Shown: positions 2,044 to 31,675 of the stretch, one piece after another
Position numbering within the stretch: the stretch's first letter is position 1
How the letters are laid out: the number at the start of each line of letters is the position of its first letter
Translations under genes and position numbers: made by a program
The notes under the pieces: model-generated
Databases searched by the model: none
Told to the model about the DNA's origin: nothing
What the model saw: the letters and a program-made list of their open reading frames with translations, nothing else
Source: Promethearchaeota archaeon
GTDB lineage: Archaea > Asgardarchaeota > Lokiarchaeia > Sigyniarchaeales > SOKP01
Length of the DNA stretch: 34,199 nucleotides
Assembly (NCBI GenBank): GCA_013375485.1
Contig: JABXKB010000011.1
Span: 1-34,199 of the forward strand
Direction: 5' to 3'

Positions 2044-5000
2044 ATGTTGTTAAAAAAATATAAGTTCATAATGATTTTAGGTATCATCGTCGGGTCATTG
2101 TTTTTTAGTATTTCTCCTCATTCTCATAAGAAGGAATTAGATGTCTCCAGGTTGAATTCTTTTCCGAATACTTCAGGGAACAACTTTGATTTAGTAGATA
2201 ATATATTAGATACAAAAATAAATTATCATAATATCTTAGGCTATTTTCCTCAATTATATCAACCTTCATTACAAGCTACGTATTATACTTTATATATCCT
2301 GAGTGAGATCGGAAGATTATCCAGTATTAATCAAACCGAGATGGTAAACTACATTCTGAGTTGCTATAATCCCAGTTCACATATATTTATAGACGATTAT
2401 GCCCGAAGATATTTAGATACCGACATTTCCAAGATGTATTATCCCTATACATCTCTGTTAGAGGTAAATTGCTATGCTCTATTATCTATTAGCATTCTAA
2501 ATAGCTTAGATTTAATTGATATCCAAGAATCAATTGATTTTATCTGGAGTTGTTATCAGCCAATTACCAGTGGATTTATGGGACAATCGTATGACTATTG
2601 GTTGCCTGACCATTTTAAATTATCCACTGCGGATAATACCTATTTTGCCATAACCACATTGGACCTGCTTATGAGTGACTGGAATGGCTATCTAACTGAG
2701 AGAAGCGATCTTATTCAATATCTAGAATCTTTACAATCAACCAATGCTTTTTTCTGGTATTTTGGGGGGTTTGAAAATGATAAAGATAACTCACTTGAAA
2801 CGATAGACATTTTTGAACCCAATTTACTATCCTCCTATTATTGTATCAAGGCTTTAGATATTTTTGGTATAGTAGATGTTATTAATATGAATAATTTTTA
2901 TCAATACCTAGGAGGGTTATATGATCCAGTAACCTTTAGCTTCCAAATGGCACATTTTTTACCTCTCGGGAACTACGGGAATAGTATCGCTACCTCTTTA
3001 GGCTTGATTCTTTCTGATCTCACATCTTATAGTAGTATTGATAGAAATAATGTAATTAATTTCATTCTTAATAATCGCAATAGTAAGGGTATCTGGGACT
3101 ATTCTACTGATTTTCTTTATTGTGAATTAATTGATACATATCAAGTAATAAGATCTTTATCGAATTCAGGAGAGTTATCACAATTATCAGAAGGTGATAA
3201 AGACTCAATCTCGACTGCATTAACCGATTTTGCTAGTTACTATGGATTTTCCTTGCTCTCTGAAGAATATACCTCTATTAATTTGTTATATGCTATAATT
3301 AATACATTTGACTTGTATAATAGAACTTCTGATTTAGATTATCAATATCTCTATTCCATGATTGAAGATTCTTGTGTATACCTTTCTGTTTCAGATTGTG
3401 AAGGATTTAATGCGGGTTTAATTTTTGAGGACACGTTTAGAAAATATCGTTCTTTCCCTATTGAATATTACTGTTCTGGAACCCAACAGTACTTTCAATA
3501 TGTTGAGAATTCATTATTATCTCATAAAAATACTTTTAATGCTTTGAGCTCATTAAAAATTCTTGAGATGATTGATGATTTTGAAATCGCTCATAATTTA
3601 AATGATTTATTGCAATCTATCTTGGATAGTCAATTTTTAGAAAATGGATATGATAATTATGGGGGTTTTTTACCATTTCTAACATTTTCTGTAGGCACTC
3701 CTGAGTATCAAGATAAAAAGATCTTTGTTGACTATTCTTATTACGCAATTAAAATTATGGAATTGCTGAGTGATTATTTAGGGTTAGGGGATATCACTAA
3801 TCTTGGGTTCGATATACCTGTTCTTAGTAGTTATATTCATAGTTATATTTTCGAGGATGTAAATTACCAATATTTTTCTCCTGGATATACCATGAATCCT
3901 GCGACTCTAATCGAGAATACCTTCTATGCTGTATATACCCTAAAAAGGATAGGGTTATATGATTTGGATGAGATAAAAGTTAAGAATTTTTTATTAGATT
4001 ACATTAATTATTCAAACATAAAGAGTGTGTATTATACCTATAAACTTTCTAAGATCTTAGATGAAGATATTCCGCTTAATTATGACCTTATTTATCAACT
4101 CATTGGAGATATATATTCAGAAGAGAACCATGAATATTATTTAACCACCGACAGGAAAAAGATTGATCAAGAAATTGTATTATGGGTTTCTGAAATGACG
4201 GTAGAAGATCTTAGTGACTCAAGTACTTTCATCAATATTGATCATCTTGAGGGGTGCGAGTTTCTATCTACTGGAAATAATATAACATTTACAATTAATG
4301 CAAAATATAGCGGAACGTATTGGTACTGGATTGATGGGATTCTTGTTGATTCGAGTACTTTCAATCCAGATGGAGATACCTTTGTATATTCATTAGATGG
4401 ATATACAGATAAAATTAAAGATTATACCGTAAAAATAAATGCAACTGCTTTAGACGATACATATGGAGAGATTATAGCTATGTTTAGCGTCTATTCTGAA
4501 TCAAGCACTATTGTAAATATTATTTCATTAGAAAATTATGAATATATGACGATAGGACATACCATCACATTTTCACTCCATTCTCAATATCCAGATTGTT
4601 ACAATTTTTCAGTGGACAACATTGAAATAATTTCCGATACATATTATGATGGGCAAGTATTTCAGTTTTCTATTGATGGTTATGGAGTAGAAACACATGA
4701 GGTGGAAATATGGGCAAGAGGATTAGATGGAAAAGAAGGAAATGCATATTCTACGTTTATGGTTTATTCTACTTCAGAAACTACAATTACTATTCATTCT
4801 ATTGATAATTATGTGTACAACTCAACAGGTAATTTTATTAATTTTAGTATAAGTTCAGATTTTCCAGAAAATTATTCTATCGAGATTGATGGGGAGATTG
4901 TAGAAAAAAGTACCTACATAAGTAATGAATCGATATTATATTCAATAGATGGGTATACTTCTGGATTACATTGGTTGCATATTTGGGCTAATAGTTCAGA

Positions 5001-7449
5001 TAAGAAAGAGACGACTTCAAGCGTTCGATTTGACGTGTTTACCAACTCATTTTTAGAAATTGAGATCCGACATCTTAATAACTACGAATTTAAATCTACG
5101 GGGAATTATATATTATTTTATCTTAATACATCCTTTCCTGATTCTTATAAATTATTTATCGATGAAATCGAGAAAGGTTCTGGGGTTTATCATTATGGGG
5201 GCGAAGTATTTAATTATTCTACAGATGGTTATTTTATAGGAGATCATAATATTTCTATCTGGGCCAATTCAACCGATGGGAAGGAAGCGATATGTAAGTC
5301 AAGCTTTACTGTATATTCACTTTCAAATACAATAGTAACTATTGAAGAACTCCCCGATTATGAATTCTTAACTACAGGACATTTTGTAAAATTTAATATT
5401 AGCTCTCTATATCCAGATTATTTTATAATTTCTATTGATGGTATTGAGATTAATAATAGTGATTATATTAGCGGGAAATTTTACTATCAATCCATTGACG
5501 GATATTCAACAGGATTTCACACGCTTTCAATTTGGGCAATTGGAGAGGATGAGAAAGTAGGAACCGCATCATCTGATTTTAATGTATATTCTAATTCTAC
5601 TACAATTATTGTGATCAACGAAATCCCTAATTATGAATTTATGACAATAGGGAATAACATTAATTTTAGTATATCTTCTTTCTACGATGGCGAATATAAT
5701 GTTTCAATAAACGATATATTAATAGATGAAGATTTATACACAGTAGGAGAGGCTATTACATACTCATCTGATGGGTATTCCGTAGGAGATCATACCGTTT
5801 TAATATGTGCTAAAAGCCTTGATGGAAAAACGGCTCAATACGAGACAATATTTACAGTATACTCTAATTCCACTACATTAATTAACATTCATAACCTTCA
5901 AGGATGTGAATTTATGTCTGTGAATAATTATTTGAATTTCTCCATTCATTCCAGTTATCCAGATTATTACACTCTAATGATTAACGATATATTAGTTCTA
6001 ACCGATAATTATTCAAATGGGGAATACCTATTATATTCGCTTGATAACTATACATCTACTATGGGGAACTATTCTGTCTCTATTTGGGCAATCGGGAAGG
6101 ATGGGAAAGAGGGATCTATTACCGCAGAGTTTAGTGTATATTCAACATCTGTTACCTTAATTAATATTCATAACCTTCAAGGATGCGAATTTATGTCCAT
6201 AGGCAATTACTTAAATTTTTCCATTCATTCCAGCTATTCGGATTATTACACTCTAAAGATTAATGATATACTAGTTCTAACCGGTAATTATTCAGACGGA
6301 GAATATATTATATATTCACTTGATAACTATACTTCTGAAATAGGAAATTATACAGTGTCAATCTGGGCAATCGGGAAGGATGGGAAAGTGGGTACAAGCA
6401 TTGCTCAATTCAAAGTCTATTCTGCTTCGGAAACTATAATTAACATTCATAACCTTCAAGGATGCGAATTTATGTCCGTAGGAAATTTCCTAAACTTCTC
6501 AGTAAGCTCACGTTATCCAGATTATTACACTCTAAAAGTTGATGATGTACTAGTCACAATAGATAATTACTCGAATGGAGAATATATTGTACATTCACTT
6601 GATAATTATACATCTACAATAGGAAATCATTCTATTTCCATCTGGGCAATTGGGAAAGATGACAAAGTTGGTATATACGTAGATAAATTTAAGGTGTATT
6701 CAGCTTCGGAGCTTTTAATAGAAATTAATAGATTGGAAGATTTTGAATTCCTTACCACTGGAAACGAGTTAGAATTTACTATTTTTTCAAATTATTCCAG
6801 ATATTATGAACTTCATATTGACAATCACCTAATATCGAAAAATAATTATAGTAATGCAATTCCTATCATCTTTTCCTTGGATAATTATACAACATCGCTT
6901 GGAAAACATACTGTAAATATTTTCGCGACTAGTCTAGATGGAAAAAATTCAACAGTTCAAATAGATTTTTGGGTATATTCTGCCTCAGAAATTGAAATTA
7001 CCATTATGAAACTTGAGGATTATGAATTTAATTCCACCGGAAATGAACTAATTGTCAATATATCGTGTAAATATTCTGTGTTTTATAGTATTTTTATTGA
7101 TACTTTAGTCATAGATTCTGGGAATTACACTGAAGGGCAATTAATTTCCCTTCCTATAGATGATTATGATATTGGACAACACAACATTAGTATCTGGGCA
7201 AAAAGCCTTGATGGGAAAGAAATCGAAGTTAATACTACCTTTACAGTATACTATGAAGAAGAGATTGAAGAAGAAGAAAATGATGAAGAAAATGATAATA
7301 GACCCAATAAGTTTAAATTGAGCATTTTGATAGGATCTATCGTAATGAGTGCATTTATGATTGCAATACCAACGATAGTAATAATTTTCTCTACAGTTTA
7401 TCATAATAAGATAAGTAAAAGATTCTCCTATAATATCAAGAAGAATTGA
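2044..7449 (+). CDS. Giant cell-surface protein: signal peptide, alpha/alpha-toroid (prenyltransferase/squalene-oxidase-like repeat) N-terminus, 11 Ig-like repeats, C-terminal TM anchor
   Basis: 1801-aa ORF. Hydrophobic N-terminus; repeated ..YYTLYILSEIG.., ..YYCIKALDIFG.., ..ATSLGLILSDL.. helical repeats; 11 repeats of ~91-93 aa ending in FxVYS; acidic linker EEEIEEEENDEEND and a TM helix with basic tail. Confidence 0.85.
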   Translation: MLLKKYKFIMILGIIVGSLFFSISPHSHKKELDVSRLNSFPNTSGNNFDLVDNILDTKINYHNILGYFPQLYQPSLQATYYTLYILSEIGRLSSINQTEMVNYILSCYNPSSHIFIDDYARRYLDTDISKMYYPYTSLLEVNCYALLSISILNSLDLIDIQESIDFIWSCYQPITSGFMGQSYDYWLPDHFKLSTADNTYFAITTLDLLMSDWNGYLTERSDLIQYLESLQSTNAFFWYFGGFENDKDNSLETIDIFEPNLLSSYYCIKALDIFGIVDVINMNNFYQYLGGLYDPVTFSFQMAHFLPLGNYGNSIATSLGLILSDLTSYSSIDRNNVINFILNNRNSKGIWDYSTDFLYCELIDTYQVIRSLSNSGELSQLSEGDKDSISTALTDFASYYGFSLLSEEYTSINLLYAIINTFDLYNRTSDLDYQYLYSMIEDSCVYLSVSDCEGFNAGLIFEDTFRKYRSFPIEYYCSGTQQYFQYVENSLLSHKNTFNALSSLKILEMIDDFEIAHNLNDLLQSILDSQFLENGYDNYGGFLPFLTFSVGTPEYQDKKIFVDYSYYAIKIMELLSDYLGLGDITNLGFDIPVLSSYIHSYIFEDVNYQYFSPGYTMNPATLIENTFYAVYTLKRIGLYDLDEIKVKNFLLDYINYSNIKSVYYTYKLSKILDEDIPLNYDLIYQLIGDIYSEENHEYYLTTDRKKIDQEIVLWVSEMTVEDLSDSSTFINIDHLEGCEFLSTGNNITFTINAKYSGTYWYWIDGILVDSSTFNPDGDTFVYSLDGYTDKIKDYTVKINATALDDTYGEIIAMFSVYSESSTIVNIISLENYEYMTIGHTITFSLHSQYPDCYNFSVDNIEIISDTYYDGQVFQFSIDGYGVETHEVEIWARGLDGKEGNAYSTFMVYSTSETTITIHSIDNYVYNSTGNFINFSISSDFPENYSIEIDGEIVEKSTYISNESILYSIDGYTSGLHWLHIWANSSDKKETTSSVRFDVFTNSFLEIEIRHLNNYEFKSTGNYILFYLNTSFPDSYKLFIDEIEKGSGVYHYGGEVFNYSTDGYFIGDHNISIWANSTDGKEAICKSSFTVYSLSNTIVTIEELPDYEFLTTGHFVKFNISSLYPDYFIISIDGIEINNSDYISGKFYYQSIDGYSTGFHTLSIWAIGEDEKVGTASSDFNVYSNSTTIIVINEIPNYEFMTIGNNINFSISSFYDGEYNVSINDILIDEDLYTVGEAITYSSDGYSVGDHTVLICAKSLDGKTAQYETIFTVYSNSTTLINIHNLQGCEFMSVNNYLNFSIHSSYPDYYTLMINDILVLTDNYSNGEYLLYSLDNYTSTMGNYSVSIWAIGKDGKEGSITAEFSVYSTSVTLINIHNLQGCEFMSIGNYLNFSIHSSYSDYYTLKINDILVLTGNYSDGEYIIYSLDNYTSEIGNYTVSIWAIGKDGKVGTSIAQFKVYSASETIINIHNLQGCEFMSVGNFLNFSVSSRYPDYYTLKVDDVLVTIDNYSNGEYIVHSLDNYTSTIGNHSISIWAIGKDDKVGIYVDKFKVYSASELLIEINRLEDFEFLTTGNELEFTIFSNYSRYYELHIDNHLISKNNYSNAIPIIFSLDNYTTSLGKHTVNIFATSLDGKNSTVQIDFWVYSASEIEITIMKLEDYEFNSTGNELIVNISCKYSVFYSIFIDTLVIDSGNYTEGQLISLPIDDYDIGQHNISIWAKSLDGKEIEVNTTFTVYYEEEIEEEENDEENDNRPNKFKLSILIGSIVMSAFMIAIPTIVIIFSTVYHNKISKRFSYNIKKN
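4219..7254 (+). repeat. 11 tandem Ig-like coding repeats (~273-279 bp each)
   Basis: Pattern I.I..L..yEFmstGN.lnFsI.s.YpdyY...ID.i.......Y..Ge...YSlDgYt...G.H.vsIWA...DGK......F.VYS. Units starting at 5869, 6148, 6427 and 6706 are spaced exactly 279 bp. Confidence 0.9.
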
Positions 7450-8912: not shown

Positions 8913-10586
8913 ATGGATACCGGTTCAGATTTCATACGACCAGAATTTCTCAATATTTTATTTTTTCAGCAAAAAAACCTAGTGATATTTCCATATGTTG
9001 ATATGAAACATCTCCATGCCTTAGAAATATTTACCGCAGGTCATAATGTAGTTGACCTTGAATCTACAGCGCTTAACAATTTAAAAGAAATTATTGAGTT
9101 TGAATCGAGTAATTCCTATGCCCAGAATCCTACTCTATTTTTTATTTCAAATACTGGGAAAGAACAATTACAGCAAATCATGGAGTTAGATGGGATTCGG
9201 TGTATCATTAACTCTAATGAAAATTTCAGTGATTTAGCAAATGGAAGCAAATTTATTTTCTTTAATAAAAAGCATGGTCAATTCATAAATTATGAAGCTA
9301 ATGATGAGGAACTAGTATTCGAAAATGAATTGATCTCACACTCAGAAAATAAAGAATTATTACAAGAACAAATTCAGAAAATTAAAATTGCGGCTTCCCG
9401 AATATTTCGAGAGTTAAATCAATCTGGTAATCTGCAAAATCTCCCTCAAATACTAAATGATTATGAGAAGAAATACTGGAATTCTATTTTAAATTTTACA
9501 GGTAATTATTATGACATTGTTATTCCTGATATTAAGATTTCAGATCTCAAAGTTAAACCACAAAAGGCTTTGAAAGATTTTTCGGATGAATATGAAGTAC
9601 TTATATCTACCAATAAACCAATTGGGAAAGAGTTTATTCAGTTGATTCATGAGTACCGAAGCAAAAAAGTAAACCCACAACATTTAGAATTAGAAGAATT
9701 ATATAATCCTTTAAGGCTTTATAATTATTTGCGAAATCATCATTGGAAACAAGGAATCCCTCAAGATTTTATTTCATCATGGACCCGTATGGAAATTTCA
9801 GGATATAATCTAACAGATACGGATCAAGAAGAATTTAATTTAATCATAGAAAAGTTAAAGTTACCACAGAATTCTGTAACAATAGTTGCTTCTCGACAAG
9901 GTCTTGAATCTAAAGAACAGCCAATGAAACTAGATATTCCTGATACCATTCCCTCATTAAGTACAGATTGGAATCAGTTTGAACAATGGCTCATGAATCG
10001 GATTGATAATCTGGAAGACATAATTGATAACTCTTTAAACACATCACCTGAAAAAGTAATCAATTCCACGTTCTCTGAGATAACGTCATTCATTTATTCA
10101 GAGATCTCAGATTTGAACCATATGCTTAGTCCTTATAGGAAAGAAAGTATGAGTGCTTTACAGCCACAAAATAATCATGATATATTAAATCAGAAGGAAA
10201 AGATCTTACTTGTGGATACAACGAATATTCTTAATTTAGATAAGAATGAAAAGGGAGAATTAAAAATTTCAAATATTGCAAAAGTACATGATGCTGTCTT
10301 AGTTCTTGGATATATTCCTAAAATGTGGGCAGACGCTTCTATGAGGCATCATGTTGACAATAAGAAACAGTATGAGAAATTGTTAGATAGGAAAATCATA
10401 CATCAAACTCCTGCCGGTACTAAAGCTGATATATGGGTTCTGAAGATCGCCAAGCAGAAAAATTACAAATTTTTAGCAAATGATTTATATAAGGAATATC
10501 GAAAAGAGTTTGGTAAAGAGTGGATTTCCATGAATCGTCTAACTTGTGTGTATGATGAGGGAGATTTTATAATATTAGAAAAATGA
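8913..10586 (+). CDS. Large protein with C-terminal NYN/Zc3h12a-like ribonuclease domain
   Basis: C-terminus ILLVDTTNIL...DASMRHHVDNKKQYEKLLDRKIIHQTPAGTKADIWVLKIAKQKNYKFLANDLYKEYRKEFGKEWISMNRLTCVYDEGDFII matches the Regnase-type NYN pattern. Confidence 0.75.
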   Translation: MDTGSDFIRPEFLNILFFQQKNLVIFPYVDMKHLHALEIFTAGHNVVDLESTALNNLKEIIEFESSNSYAQNPTLFFISNTGKEQLQQIMELDGIRCIINSNENFSDLANGSKFIFFNKKHGQFINYEANDEELVFENELISHSENKELLQEQIQKIKIAASRIFRELNQSGNLQNLPQILNDYEKKYWNSILNFTGNYYDIVIPDIKISDLKVKPQKALKDFSDEYEVLISTNKPIGKEFIQLIHEYRSKKVNPQHLELEELYNPLRLYNYLRNHHWKQGIPQDFISSWTRMEISGYNLTDTDQEEFNLIIEKLKLPQNSVTIVASRQGLESKEQPMKLDIPDTIPSLSTDWNQFEQWLMNRIDNLEDIIDNSLNTSPEKVINSTFSEITSFIYSEISDLNHMLSPYRKESMSALQPQNNHDILNQKEKILLVDTTNILNLDKNEKGELKISNIAKVHDAVLVLGYIPKMWADASMRHHVDNKKQYEKLLDRKIIHQTPAGTKADIWVLKIAKQKNYKFLANDLYKEYRKEFGKEWISMNRLTCVYDEGDFIILEK

Positions 10587-13231: not shown

Positions 13232-13390
13232 ACATATCGAATAAGATTAAATTTATTCCTTATAAAGAAAAAATCTGTGATCCATGTCAGATGATTTTTA
13301 TTTATAAGCAATAGATATAAATGTAAAATTGGGTTCTCCATATTTGTCATGGCAAGAATTTTTATATCTACAGAATAAATTTAAACTATG

Positions 13391-13511
13391 ATTTACTCCC
13401 ACCCCATACCCTGGATTTTTGTCTTTTGGTAGTGTAGTCTTCTACACTCTGATTTCGCGCTCCTCCTAACTTTTTTTGACGCGTACTTGCGTTAATGGGG
13501 CGGGAGTAGAT
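13391..13511 (-). ncRNA. Structured ncRNA, family copy A
   Basis: 14-bp closing stem UACUCCCGCCCCAU/AUGGGGUGGGAGUA; P2 ACGC/GCGU; P3 AGUGUAG-AAGA-CUACACU; then ACCAAAAGACAAAAAUCCAGGG, identical to copy B at 31413-31434. Confidence 0.75.
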
Positions 13512-13664
13512 CAACCTTTTTATAAGATAAGATTCATTTTTATGTATTTTGCTTTTTTTCTTTAAATTAAAGCAATTTACTTTATCTTCATAATAAGTAG
13601 AAAGTGATATATAATCGTCATTGTTTTTGGAAAAATTAAAGATGTAAAGAACGTCAAAAAAAGA

Positions 13665-23998: not shown

Positions 23999-25234
23999 AT
24001 GGCTGATTTAGATCAAGTGAAAGGAATTAATGCTCGCCAAATTAAATTACTTCAAGAAAATGGAATAAGCACTGCTGAAGCTCTAGCCATGAGTCCTCAT
24101 TCTACGGTCGCTTGTATTGATGGATTAGGAGATAAAACAGCAAAAAAACTCATCTGGAACGCGAGGAATGCGTTAGGTATGACTGATTTCACTCCCGCAG
24201 CAAAAATCGATGACAATGTAGAATATATTACAACTGGTTCTGCTGAGTTAAATCGAATATTGGGAGGAGGATTTCAAACCGGTAAATTAACCGAAGTTTA
24301 TGGACCTTTCAAATCAGGAAAGACAGCTTTGGCGCACTCAATATCAGTCACAGTCCAATTACCAGAAAAAAAGGGAGGATTAAATGGTGCTGTTGCCTAT
24401 ATAGACACAGAAAACACGTTTTCAAAAGAAAAGATTAAAAGAATTGCTAAACGATTTGAACTTAACCCTAATGATGTATTATCAAAGATTTATCATGCCC
24501 GAATCTACTCCTCTGATCATCAATCTCAGATGATTCAAAAGGCAGAAACTCTTTGTAAGACACGTGGGGTACGTTTAATAGTAATCGATAGTTTAATGGC
24601 ATTACTTCGATCTGAATATGTTGGAATCGGAAAACTGGCTCCAAGACAAGCAGTTCTCAATCATATGATCCATGGGTTATCTCGAATTGCGGAGACGTAT
24701 AATTGTGCCGTTTTACTTACAAATCAAGTAGCAACCAAGATGATGGGTATGTTTTCTTCGAATGATGCTATTGGCGGTAATATCGTTGCGCACGGATGCC
24801 ACTTCAGAGTAATGTTCAAGACCAAGGGATTTTCTTCCAATAATTCATTAAAGCGACGGGCTGTAATAGTTGATGCTCCCGACTTACCTCCAGAAGAATG
24901 CGAGTTTTTCATAACTGGTACTGGAGTTGCGGATACTGATAAGGTTGATCTCCCAGAGTCTTCGGGTTTAGATTTCAAAATTGAGACTTTGTATGAAGAG
25001 GATGATACTCAAAAAGATCAGGATACAGAAGAATTATCCAATGATGAGGTCCCCTTAACCCAAGTGAAAGGAATTGGAGTGGGAACTGTTGAAAATCTAC
25101 ACGCTCAAGGGATCTCCAATATATCAGAGTTATTAGCAGCAGATCCAGAAGAACTATCAGCAAGCATTTCTGGAGCTTCCGTAAAAACGATTTCGCAATG
25201 GCAAGTTAATGCAAAGTTATTAAAAAATTCTTAA
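23999..25234 (+). CDS. radA: RadA recombinase with additional C-terminal HhH domain
   Basis: N-terminal HhH VKGINARQIKLLQENGI...GLGDKTAKKLIWNAR, Walker A GPFKSGKT, Walker B VRLIVIDSLMALLRSEY, LLTNQV; C-terminal second HhH VKGIGVGTVENLHAQGISNISELLAADPEEL. Confidence 0.9.
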   Translation: MADLDQVKGINARQIKLLQENGISTAEALAMSPHSTVACIDGLGDKTAKKLIWNARNALGMTDFTPAAKIDDNVEYITTGSAELNRILGGGFQTGKLTEVYGPFKSGKTALAHSISVTVQLPEKKGGLNGAVAYIDTENTFSKEKIKRIAKRFELNPNDVLSKIYHARIYSSDHQSQMIQKAETLCKTRGVRLIVIDSLMALLRSEYVGIGKLAPRQAVLNHMIHGLSRIAETYNCAVLLTNQVATKMMGMFSSNDAIGGNIVAHGCHFRVMFKTKGFSSNNSLKRRAVIVDAPDLPPEECEFFITGTGVADTDKVDLPESSGLDFKIETLYEEDDTQKDQDTEELSNDEVPLTQVKGIGVGTVENLHAQGISNISELLAADPEELSASISGASVKTISQWQVNAKLLKNS

Positions 25235-31303: not shown

Positions 31304-31328
31304 TGTGCCAAAGTTCAAATTAATAAAG

Positions 31329-31448
31329 GAGGCTCCTGCCAACGAGCCTCAATGCGAGGCATAAACTTTCAAAAGGCAGAGTAGGTAATTCTTATGTGTA
31401 ATTTCTTACACAACCAAAAGACAAAAATCCAGGGAATTGACAGGAGCC
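31329..31448 (+). ncRNA. Structured ncRNA, family copy B
   Basis: Closing stem GGCUCCUGCCAA/UUGACAGGAGCC (one mismatch); P2 GCCUC-AAUGC-GAGGC; P3 UGUGUAA-UUUC-UUACACA; then ACCAAAAGACAAAAAUCCAGGG. Confidence 0.75.
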
Positions 31449-31675
31449 ATTGTTAGTAATTTATAACTTATCATGAAAATTTATGACTATATCATATAGA
31501 TTTGTTAAGTAATATAAAAATTTTAGCTCTATAGATATTACCTAATTTTTAATAAAGAGATTTTGAAAATTTAATAAAAAAAAATCAAATTCAATAACTT
31601 TCACCTTATATTAGTTATGGTTTTAATTAAATAGAAAGGTTCCTATATAACTCTATCACAAAATTTTGATGGTTT

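Follow-up and report, generated by a model that had tools for sequence, protein, structure and literature searches.

The stretch of DNA analysed here, referred to as the window, comprises 34,199 nucleotides of contig JABXKB010000011.1 from the Promethearchaeota archaeon assembly GCA_013375485.1. It carries two intergenic copies of a structured element, copy A, with a gene for an HHH-domain protein on one side and one for a Hel308-like helicase on the other, and copy B, which has an orphan ORF on one side and a malate/lactate dehydrogenase gene on the other. Elsewhere in the window are a 1801-amino acid ORF (2044-7449, plus strand) in which a prenyltransferase-type toroid repeat near the N terminus is the only convincing domain, a 557-amino acid ORF (8913-10586, plus strand) that carries a Zc3h12a-like NYN ribonuclease domain at its C terminus, and a Rad51/RadA-like recombinase gene (23999-25234, plus strand), the product of which shows a helix-hairpin-helix match near the C terminus (residues 353-403).

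The 22-nt motif ACCAAAAGACAAAAATCCAGGG, which the initial annotation had described as common to both copies, is found exactly at 13409-13430 (minus strand) and 31413-31434 (plus strand), with no occurrence expected by chance. Only two copies had been recognized; the source genome contains five exact motif copies, and the same five loci are recovered by a covariance model trained on 47 copies (E about 4e-22 to 7e-32, next match 0.17), copy A with an E-value of 4.0e-22 and copy B of 6.4e-24. Copy A folds better than all of 200 shuffled sequences whichever strand is taken (z = -5.6 for the minus and -7.1 for the plus strand), and the fold of copy B on the minus strand has a z-score of -3.5.

Read on the strand favoured below, the RNA gene of copy A would extend approximately from 13388 to 13521 (plus strand), as proposed from the model match and the fold, with the core element at 13394-13508. 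A candidate TATA box, TTTTTATATC, is located at 13359-13368, as suggested by the family-wide enrichment of such words, and would place the start at about 13388. The core begins with the 5′ arm of the closing stem P1 (TACTCCCACCCCAT, 13394-13407), whose partner is the 3′ arm ATGGGGCGGGAGTA at 13495-13508, a pairing backed by covariation in the family. Between the arms are located the invariant motif CCCTGGATTTTTGTCTTTTGGT (13409-13430), which includes AUUUUUG, the P3 hairpin AGTGTAGTCTTCTACACT (13431-13448; fold and family covariation), a pyrimidine-rich linker including CTCCTCC (13449-13477) and the P2 hairpin (13478-13493; fold). A CCTTTTT tail at 13514-13521 may serve as terminator.

The corresponding gene of copy B would cover about 31324-31490 on the minus strand (core element 31331-31448; model match and fold). 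Its candidate promoter AAAATTTTTATATTAC (31509-31524), which is kept in the orthologues L021, L024 and L029, predicts a start at about 31490. In the order of reading, the predicted features are the 5′ strand of an additional helix, P4 (CATAAATTTTCA, 31474-31485), the P1 5′ arm (31437-31448; fold), the invariant motif (31413-31434), the P3 hairpin (31395-31412; fold), the P4 3′ strand TGAAAGTTTATG within the linker (31360-31371), the P2 hairpin GCCTCGCATTGAGGC (31346-31360), the first base of which is the last base of the marked P4 strand, the P1 3′ arm (31331-31340) and a TCCTTTA tail (31324-31330).

Common fold and covariation

Comparison of the copies gives good support to an architecture in which each of them would consist of the closing stem P1 holding the invariant 22-nt strand, followed by P3, the pyrimidine-rich linker and, usually, P2; equally well supported is the prediction that in most copies the linker additionally pairs with the 5′ leader to form P4. 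In a structure-blind alignment, both-sided changes are observed in 19 of the 22 pairs of P1, P2 and P3; the covariation score was reached by none of 500 shuffles, and slid versions are only 27-38% paired. In the model alignment of 102 copies, which is biased towards the structure, all 22 pairs covary and 92.1% of the cells are paired. These data bear out the initial proposal of an orphan structured RNA with covarying stems, and in copy A the closing stem of 14 bp as well as P2 and P3 are present as described therein. The closing stems of the two copies had been taken to be unrelated in sequence. Their 10-nt cores, TACTCCCGCC and GGCTCCTGCC, agree at 7 of 10 positions, and each represents a variant of the consensus GACUCCUGCC/GGCAGGAGUC seen in the family; this part of the description needs correction. 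A further outer stem beyond P1 was considered and rejected, with pairing of the flanks at chance level (p = 0.49).

The motif columns constitute the only nearly invariant block, while the rest of the element varies. The extent of this invariance is inflated, since the copies were initially gathered via the motif; the model search, however, yields few additional copies, some of them with a damaged motif (L211, L218, L219). A divergent subtype (L067, L071, L075, L089, L093, L097, L105, L113, L133) is devoid of P2 and possesses a linker that is GGGAGAAGUAAAGA-like on the initially annotated strand; the invariant motif as well as P1 and P3 are retained.

P4 is an H-type pseudoknot between the 5′ leader and the P3-P2 linker. 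It had been overlooked in the initial description, as had the CCUUUU tail. When each leader is paired with its own linker rather than with swapped partners, a z-score of -5.8 is obtained, which is reached in none of 20000 permutations; a more distal upstream region used as control gives p = 0.18. Read on the other strand, the same test results in z of about -4.7, with p = 0.52 for the opposite-flank control. Changes matched on both sides are exemplified by AAUUAUGAGGA/UCCUCAUAAUU in L005 and CAUAAAUUUUCA/UGAAAGUUUAUG in copy B. A clear P4 is missing from copy A, where the linker has no evident upstream partner, and from some other copies; together with the position of the copy A TATA box near P1, this is consistent with a shorter leader.

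Reading direction and transcript

The RNA would probably be transcribed from the strand opposite to that initially annotated, that is, from the plus strand in copy A and from the minus strand in copy B, as judged from the sequences of the copies. On the initially annotated strand, paired columns contain 87 A.C against 29 G.U combinations; the corresponding numbers are 44 and 13 after thinning to <80% identity, and 39 and 14 for P1 and P3 of the structure-blind alignment. An A.C combination becomes G.U when the complementary strand is read, so that the RNA is probably the reverse complement. The latter also folds better, both by consensus energy (alifold, -25.5 versus -21.0) and by mean minimum free energy (-37.1 versus -33.1, p = 3e-16). 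Mismatch asymmetry and folding energy are published criteria for the reading direction (PMC1892782). For tRNAs, which served as a control of strand asymmetry, G.U was counted three times and A.C once, a sample too small to be informative.

Independently of these criteria, the region 40-100 nt upstream of P1 shows a two- to fourfold enrichment of TATA-like words, which is confined to the likely strand; on this strand, a YCCTTT tail is found 3′ of P1 in most copies. It is supported, albeit not proven, that the RNA possesses its own TATA promoter and that its 3′ end is a short U tract beyond P1; the resulting RNA genes would be free-standing and about 130-170 nt long. Synthesis from the opposite strand, with the A-rich form of the motif unpaired, is quite unlikely. 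There, a diffuse T-rich region extends for about 40 nt after P1, AAAGG is conserved upstream, and the 20 nt next to P1 show an excess of TATA-like words. At such proximity, however, these words would place the transcription start beyond the P1 5′ arm, and a promoter upstream on that strand was rejected since a TATA peak at usable distance is absent; in addition, A.C exceeds G.U threefold and folding is weaker. The motif that the initial annotation described as invariant and unpaired, A-rich on its strand, turns into an invariant U-rich one on the likely strand.

Distribution and genomic setting

Searching for the exact motif gave 37 positive genomes out of 58, all but one of which belong to the family of the source genome. 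With the covariance model, 62 of 65 genomes of this Lokiarchaeial family are positive, with 1-10 copies each; the three genomes in which the element was not detected are 64-78% complete. Among 163 other genomes of the phylum, the model search returned no convincing match, and the three weak ones are devoid of the motif; matches in families f15 and f22 (E 0.003-0.006) were dismissed for the lack of the motif. Scanning a sequence collection for the motif gave a similar picture: the records among the matches listed belong almost exclusively to Lokiarchaeota, and the few others lack the surrounding element, except for one contig binned as Patescibacteria. No element surrounds the matches in Chitinophagaceae, Leptospiraceae, Sulfurospirillum and similar records, nor the single match on a viral contig; from viral contigs, the element is essentially missing. 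The Patescibacteria-binned contig (JANBVM010000030.1, AMOR_Bin_1762; L073) carries two copies, at 675-788 and 3653-3760, beside TPR-type ORFs and is most likely a mis-binned Lokiarchaeial contig.

Screening of the window and 11 further loci on both strands against Rfam 15 gave no match above the gathering threshold, the best sub-threshold matches being at chance level, and no earlier description of the element was found in the literature searched. There is strong support for a genuine structured RNA family to which no relative was found in Rfam or in that literature. Homologues in related genomes, covarying stems in additional copies and the absence of a confident Rfam hit are, in each case, the opposite of what the initial annotation had named as evidence against its proposal. 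What escaped it is the restriction to one Lokiarchaeial family, in which the RNA is near-universal and outside of which it is apparently absent. The RNA genes would have been inherited and duplicated inside this family of the Lokiarchaeia.

All copies examined are intergenic, with none inside a predicted gene. On the likely strand, the downstream gene has the same orientation in 69 of 108 cases and is convergent in about 39. About 25-28 of the same-strand cases represent a single orthologous locus, where the downstream gene encodes a radical SAM protein related to tetraether lipid synthase, an assignment that is slightly under the curated cut-off of that enzyme family; once this locus is set aside, the same-strand share is about 53%. 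A syntenic copy between a small membrane protein gene and the radical SAM gene is seen in several genera (loci L001, L007, L013, L014, L042, L044 and about 25 others) and is likely to be the ancestral one. The intergenic position and the varied neighbours speak for free-standing RNA genes rather than riboswitches. Action in cis, with the element serving the gene downstream as riboswitch or leader, would be suggested by the approximately 28 copies that, on the likely strand, precede the radical SAM gene; neither a constant position nor functionally related same-strand genes, as expected of a riboswitch, are found in the family, where the neighbours belong to many unrelated families and the downstream gene is convergent in more than a third of the copies, among them copy B, so that a cis-acting role is hardly probable. 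It is most unlikely that the copies are what remains of a mobile element or travel with one, as an inverted-repeat element or an orphan guide RNA would. Multiple copies and a long inverted repeat are what such an origin would predict, but the copies are confined to intergenic DNA, no transposase or nuclease family is common to their neighbours, one locus is syntenic in several genera, the paralogues diverged via compensatory changes, pairing of the outer flanks does not exceed chance, and viral contigs are nearly free of the element.

Possible function and relation to known RNAs

On the likely strand, the motif reads CCCUGGAUUUUUGUCUUUUGGU and contains the Sm heptad AUUUUUG (p = 0.009 given the composition of the motif), with a gap of 9 nt between the heptad and the covarying P3 hairpin. 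When GAUUUUUGU is compared with the nonameric Sm site (purine-AUUUUUG-purine), the heptad is present and invariant, whereas the 3′ purine is replaced by U. In the 19 genomes searched, the 13-mer motif core occurs almost exclusively within the elements, which makes a protein-binding or structural site more likely than a guide; at the length of this 13-mer, essentially no complementary chromosomal targets were encountered that would suit antisense guidance by the motif, while shorter pairings may exist. Pairing of the motif with 16S rRNA was likewise dropped: on the initially annotated strand, AUCCAG fits the 16S tail (p about 0.02), and on the likely strand loose pairing via G.U is possible (p about 0.05), both values being weak given several comparisons.

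The preferred reading, to which we assign a probability of roughly 0.4, is that of a regulatory RNA bound by a heptameric Sm-like archaeal protein (SmAP). A constant protein partner, most likely a SmAP recognizing AUUUUUG beside a stem-loop, would dock onto the invariant motif, and targeting would fall to the variable linker, which is rich in pyrimidines, in many copies resembles CCUCC and would base-pair with purine-rich, Shine-Dalgarno-like segments of mRNAs. P4 would mask the linker until displaced by the target or by protein; thus, one common RNP scaffold might address different targets in different copies. Archaeal SmAPs bind oligo-U (PMC4500138), and Sm assembly in eukaryotic cells requires the site together with a 3′ stem-loop (PMC6954390). 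Along with the AUUUUUG in the invariant motif, the hairpin after it and the LSM genes of the genome, which encodes three clear LSM proteins, this supports SmAP docking. Pyrimidines make up 76% of the linker, in which CCUCC is frequent, and a minority of genes have SD-like sites above background.

Several observations argue against this explanation. Invariance extends to all 22 nt, beyond the requirement of an Sm site; the site is within the closed P1 loop, onto which a preformed ring could not thread; and its 3′ flank is U where the Sm consensus has a purine. An LSM protein specific to the lineage is absent: a 4-versus-3 difference in LSM count vanished upon inclusion of weaker matches, because other lineages have a similar divergent LSM match of ~145-150 amino acids. 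Pairing with Shine-Dalgarno sequences cannot be general, since CCUCC is lacking in several copies including copy B, and a clear P4 is missing from copy A and some other copies. The T-rich sequence 3′ of P1 on the initially annotated strand also counts against it.

Instead of a SmAP-bound regulator, the element could be a structural or housekeeping RNP RNA with a role like that of 6S, 7SK or Y RNAs, its motif holding an unknown protein, its copies being redundant and base-pairing with mRNA being absent. Its near-universal presence in the family, the confinement of invariance to the motif and the missing chromosomal complement of the motif core make this a tentative possibility to be taken seriously, while 1-10 copies per genome with divergent linkers would be unusual for a housekeeping RNA. 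An invariant core, variable stems and a pseudoknot constitute the architecture of several small ribozymes, and a self-cleaving or otherwise catalytic RNA scattered in intergenic DNA would share these traits; with no Rfam ribozyme match, 22 contiguous invariant bases in one strand being atypical, and copies that seem to be genes of their own with promoter and tail, such a function is unlikely.

Almost no regulatory RNAs of Asgard archaea are described in the literature searched. A multicopy, near-universal and strongly constrained RNA that is confined to a single family of the closest prokaryotic relatives of eukaryotes offers an entry into Asgard RNA biology. If its motif binds archaeal Sm proteins, the existence of non-eukaryotic Sm-ring RNPs with variable pairing segments becomes testable; even without the Sm link, the corrected strand, the promoter and the pseudoknot provide exact probes for metatranscriptomes.

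Among known systems, small self-cleaving ribozymes (HDV-like, pistol, hatchet) resemble the element in their invariant core, variable stems and pseudoknot; unlike these, it lacks a model match, would possess its own promoters and has syntenic copies. With the Hfq- and SmAP-associated sRNAs of bacteria and archaea it would share own promoters, a 3′ U tract and a U-rich site, as predicted here, as well as a segment rich in pyrimidines that could pair with purine-rich sites of mRNAs, but it differs by the pseudoknot and by a 22-nt invariant motif in all paralogues. In comparison with the Sm-class snRNAs (U1, U2, U4, U5), the element's site is enclosed by P1, its flanks are invariant, too, and its 3′ base is U instead of a purine; similarity to any snRNA model is lacking and a splicing role is without support. 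Sm-class snRNAs nevertheless carry a single-stranded AUUUUUG followed by a stem-loop, and several structured RNAs share one protein-binding code (PMC6954390), as the element might. An snRNA-like Asgard RNP family, with archaeal Sm proteins on AUUUUUG and the 3′ stem-loop and with variable pairing segments, is doubtful; if true, it would represent a prokaryotic counterpart of the spliceosomal Sm-ring RNPs.
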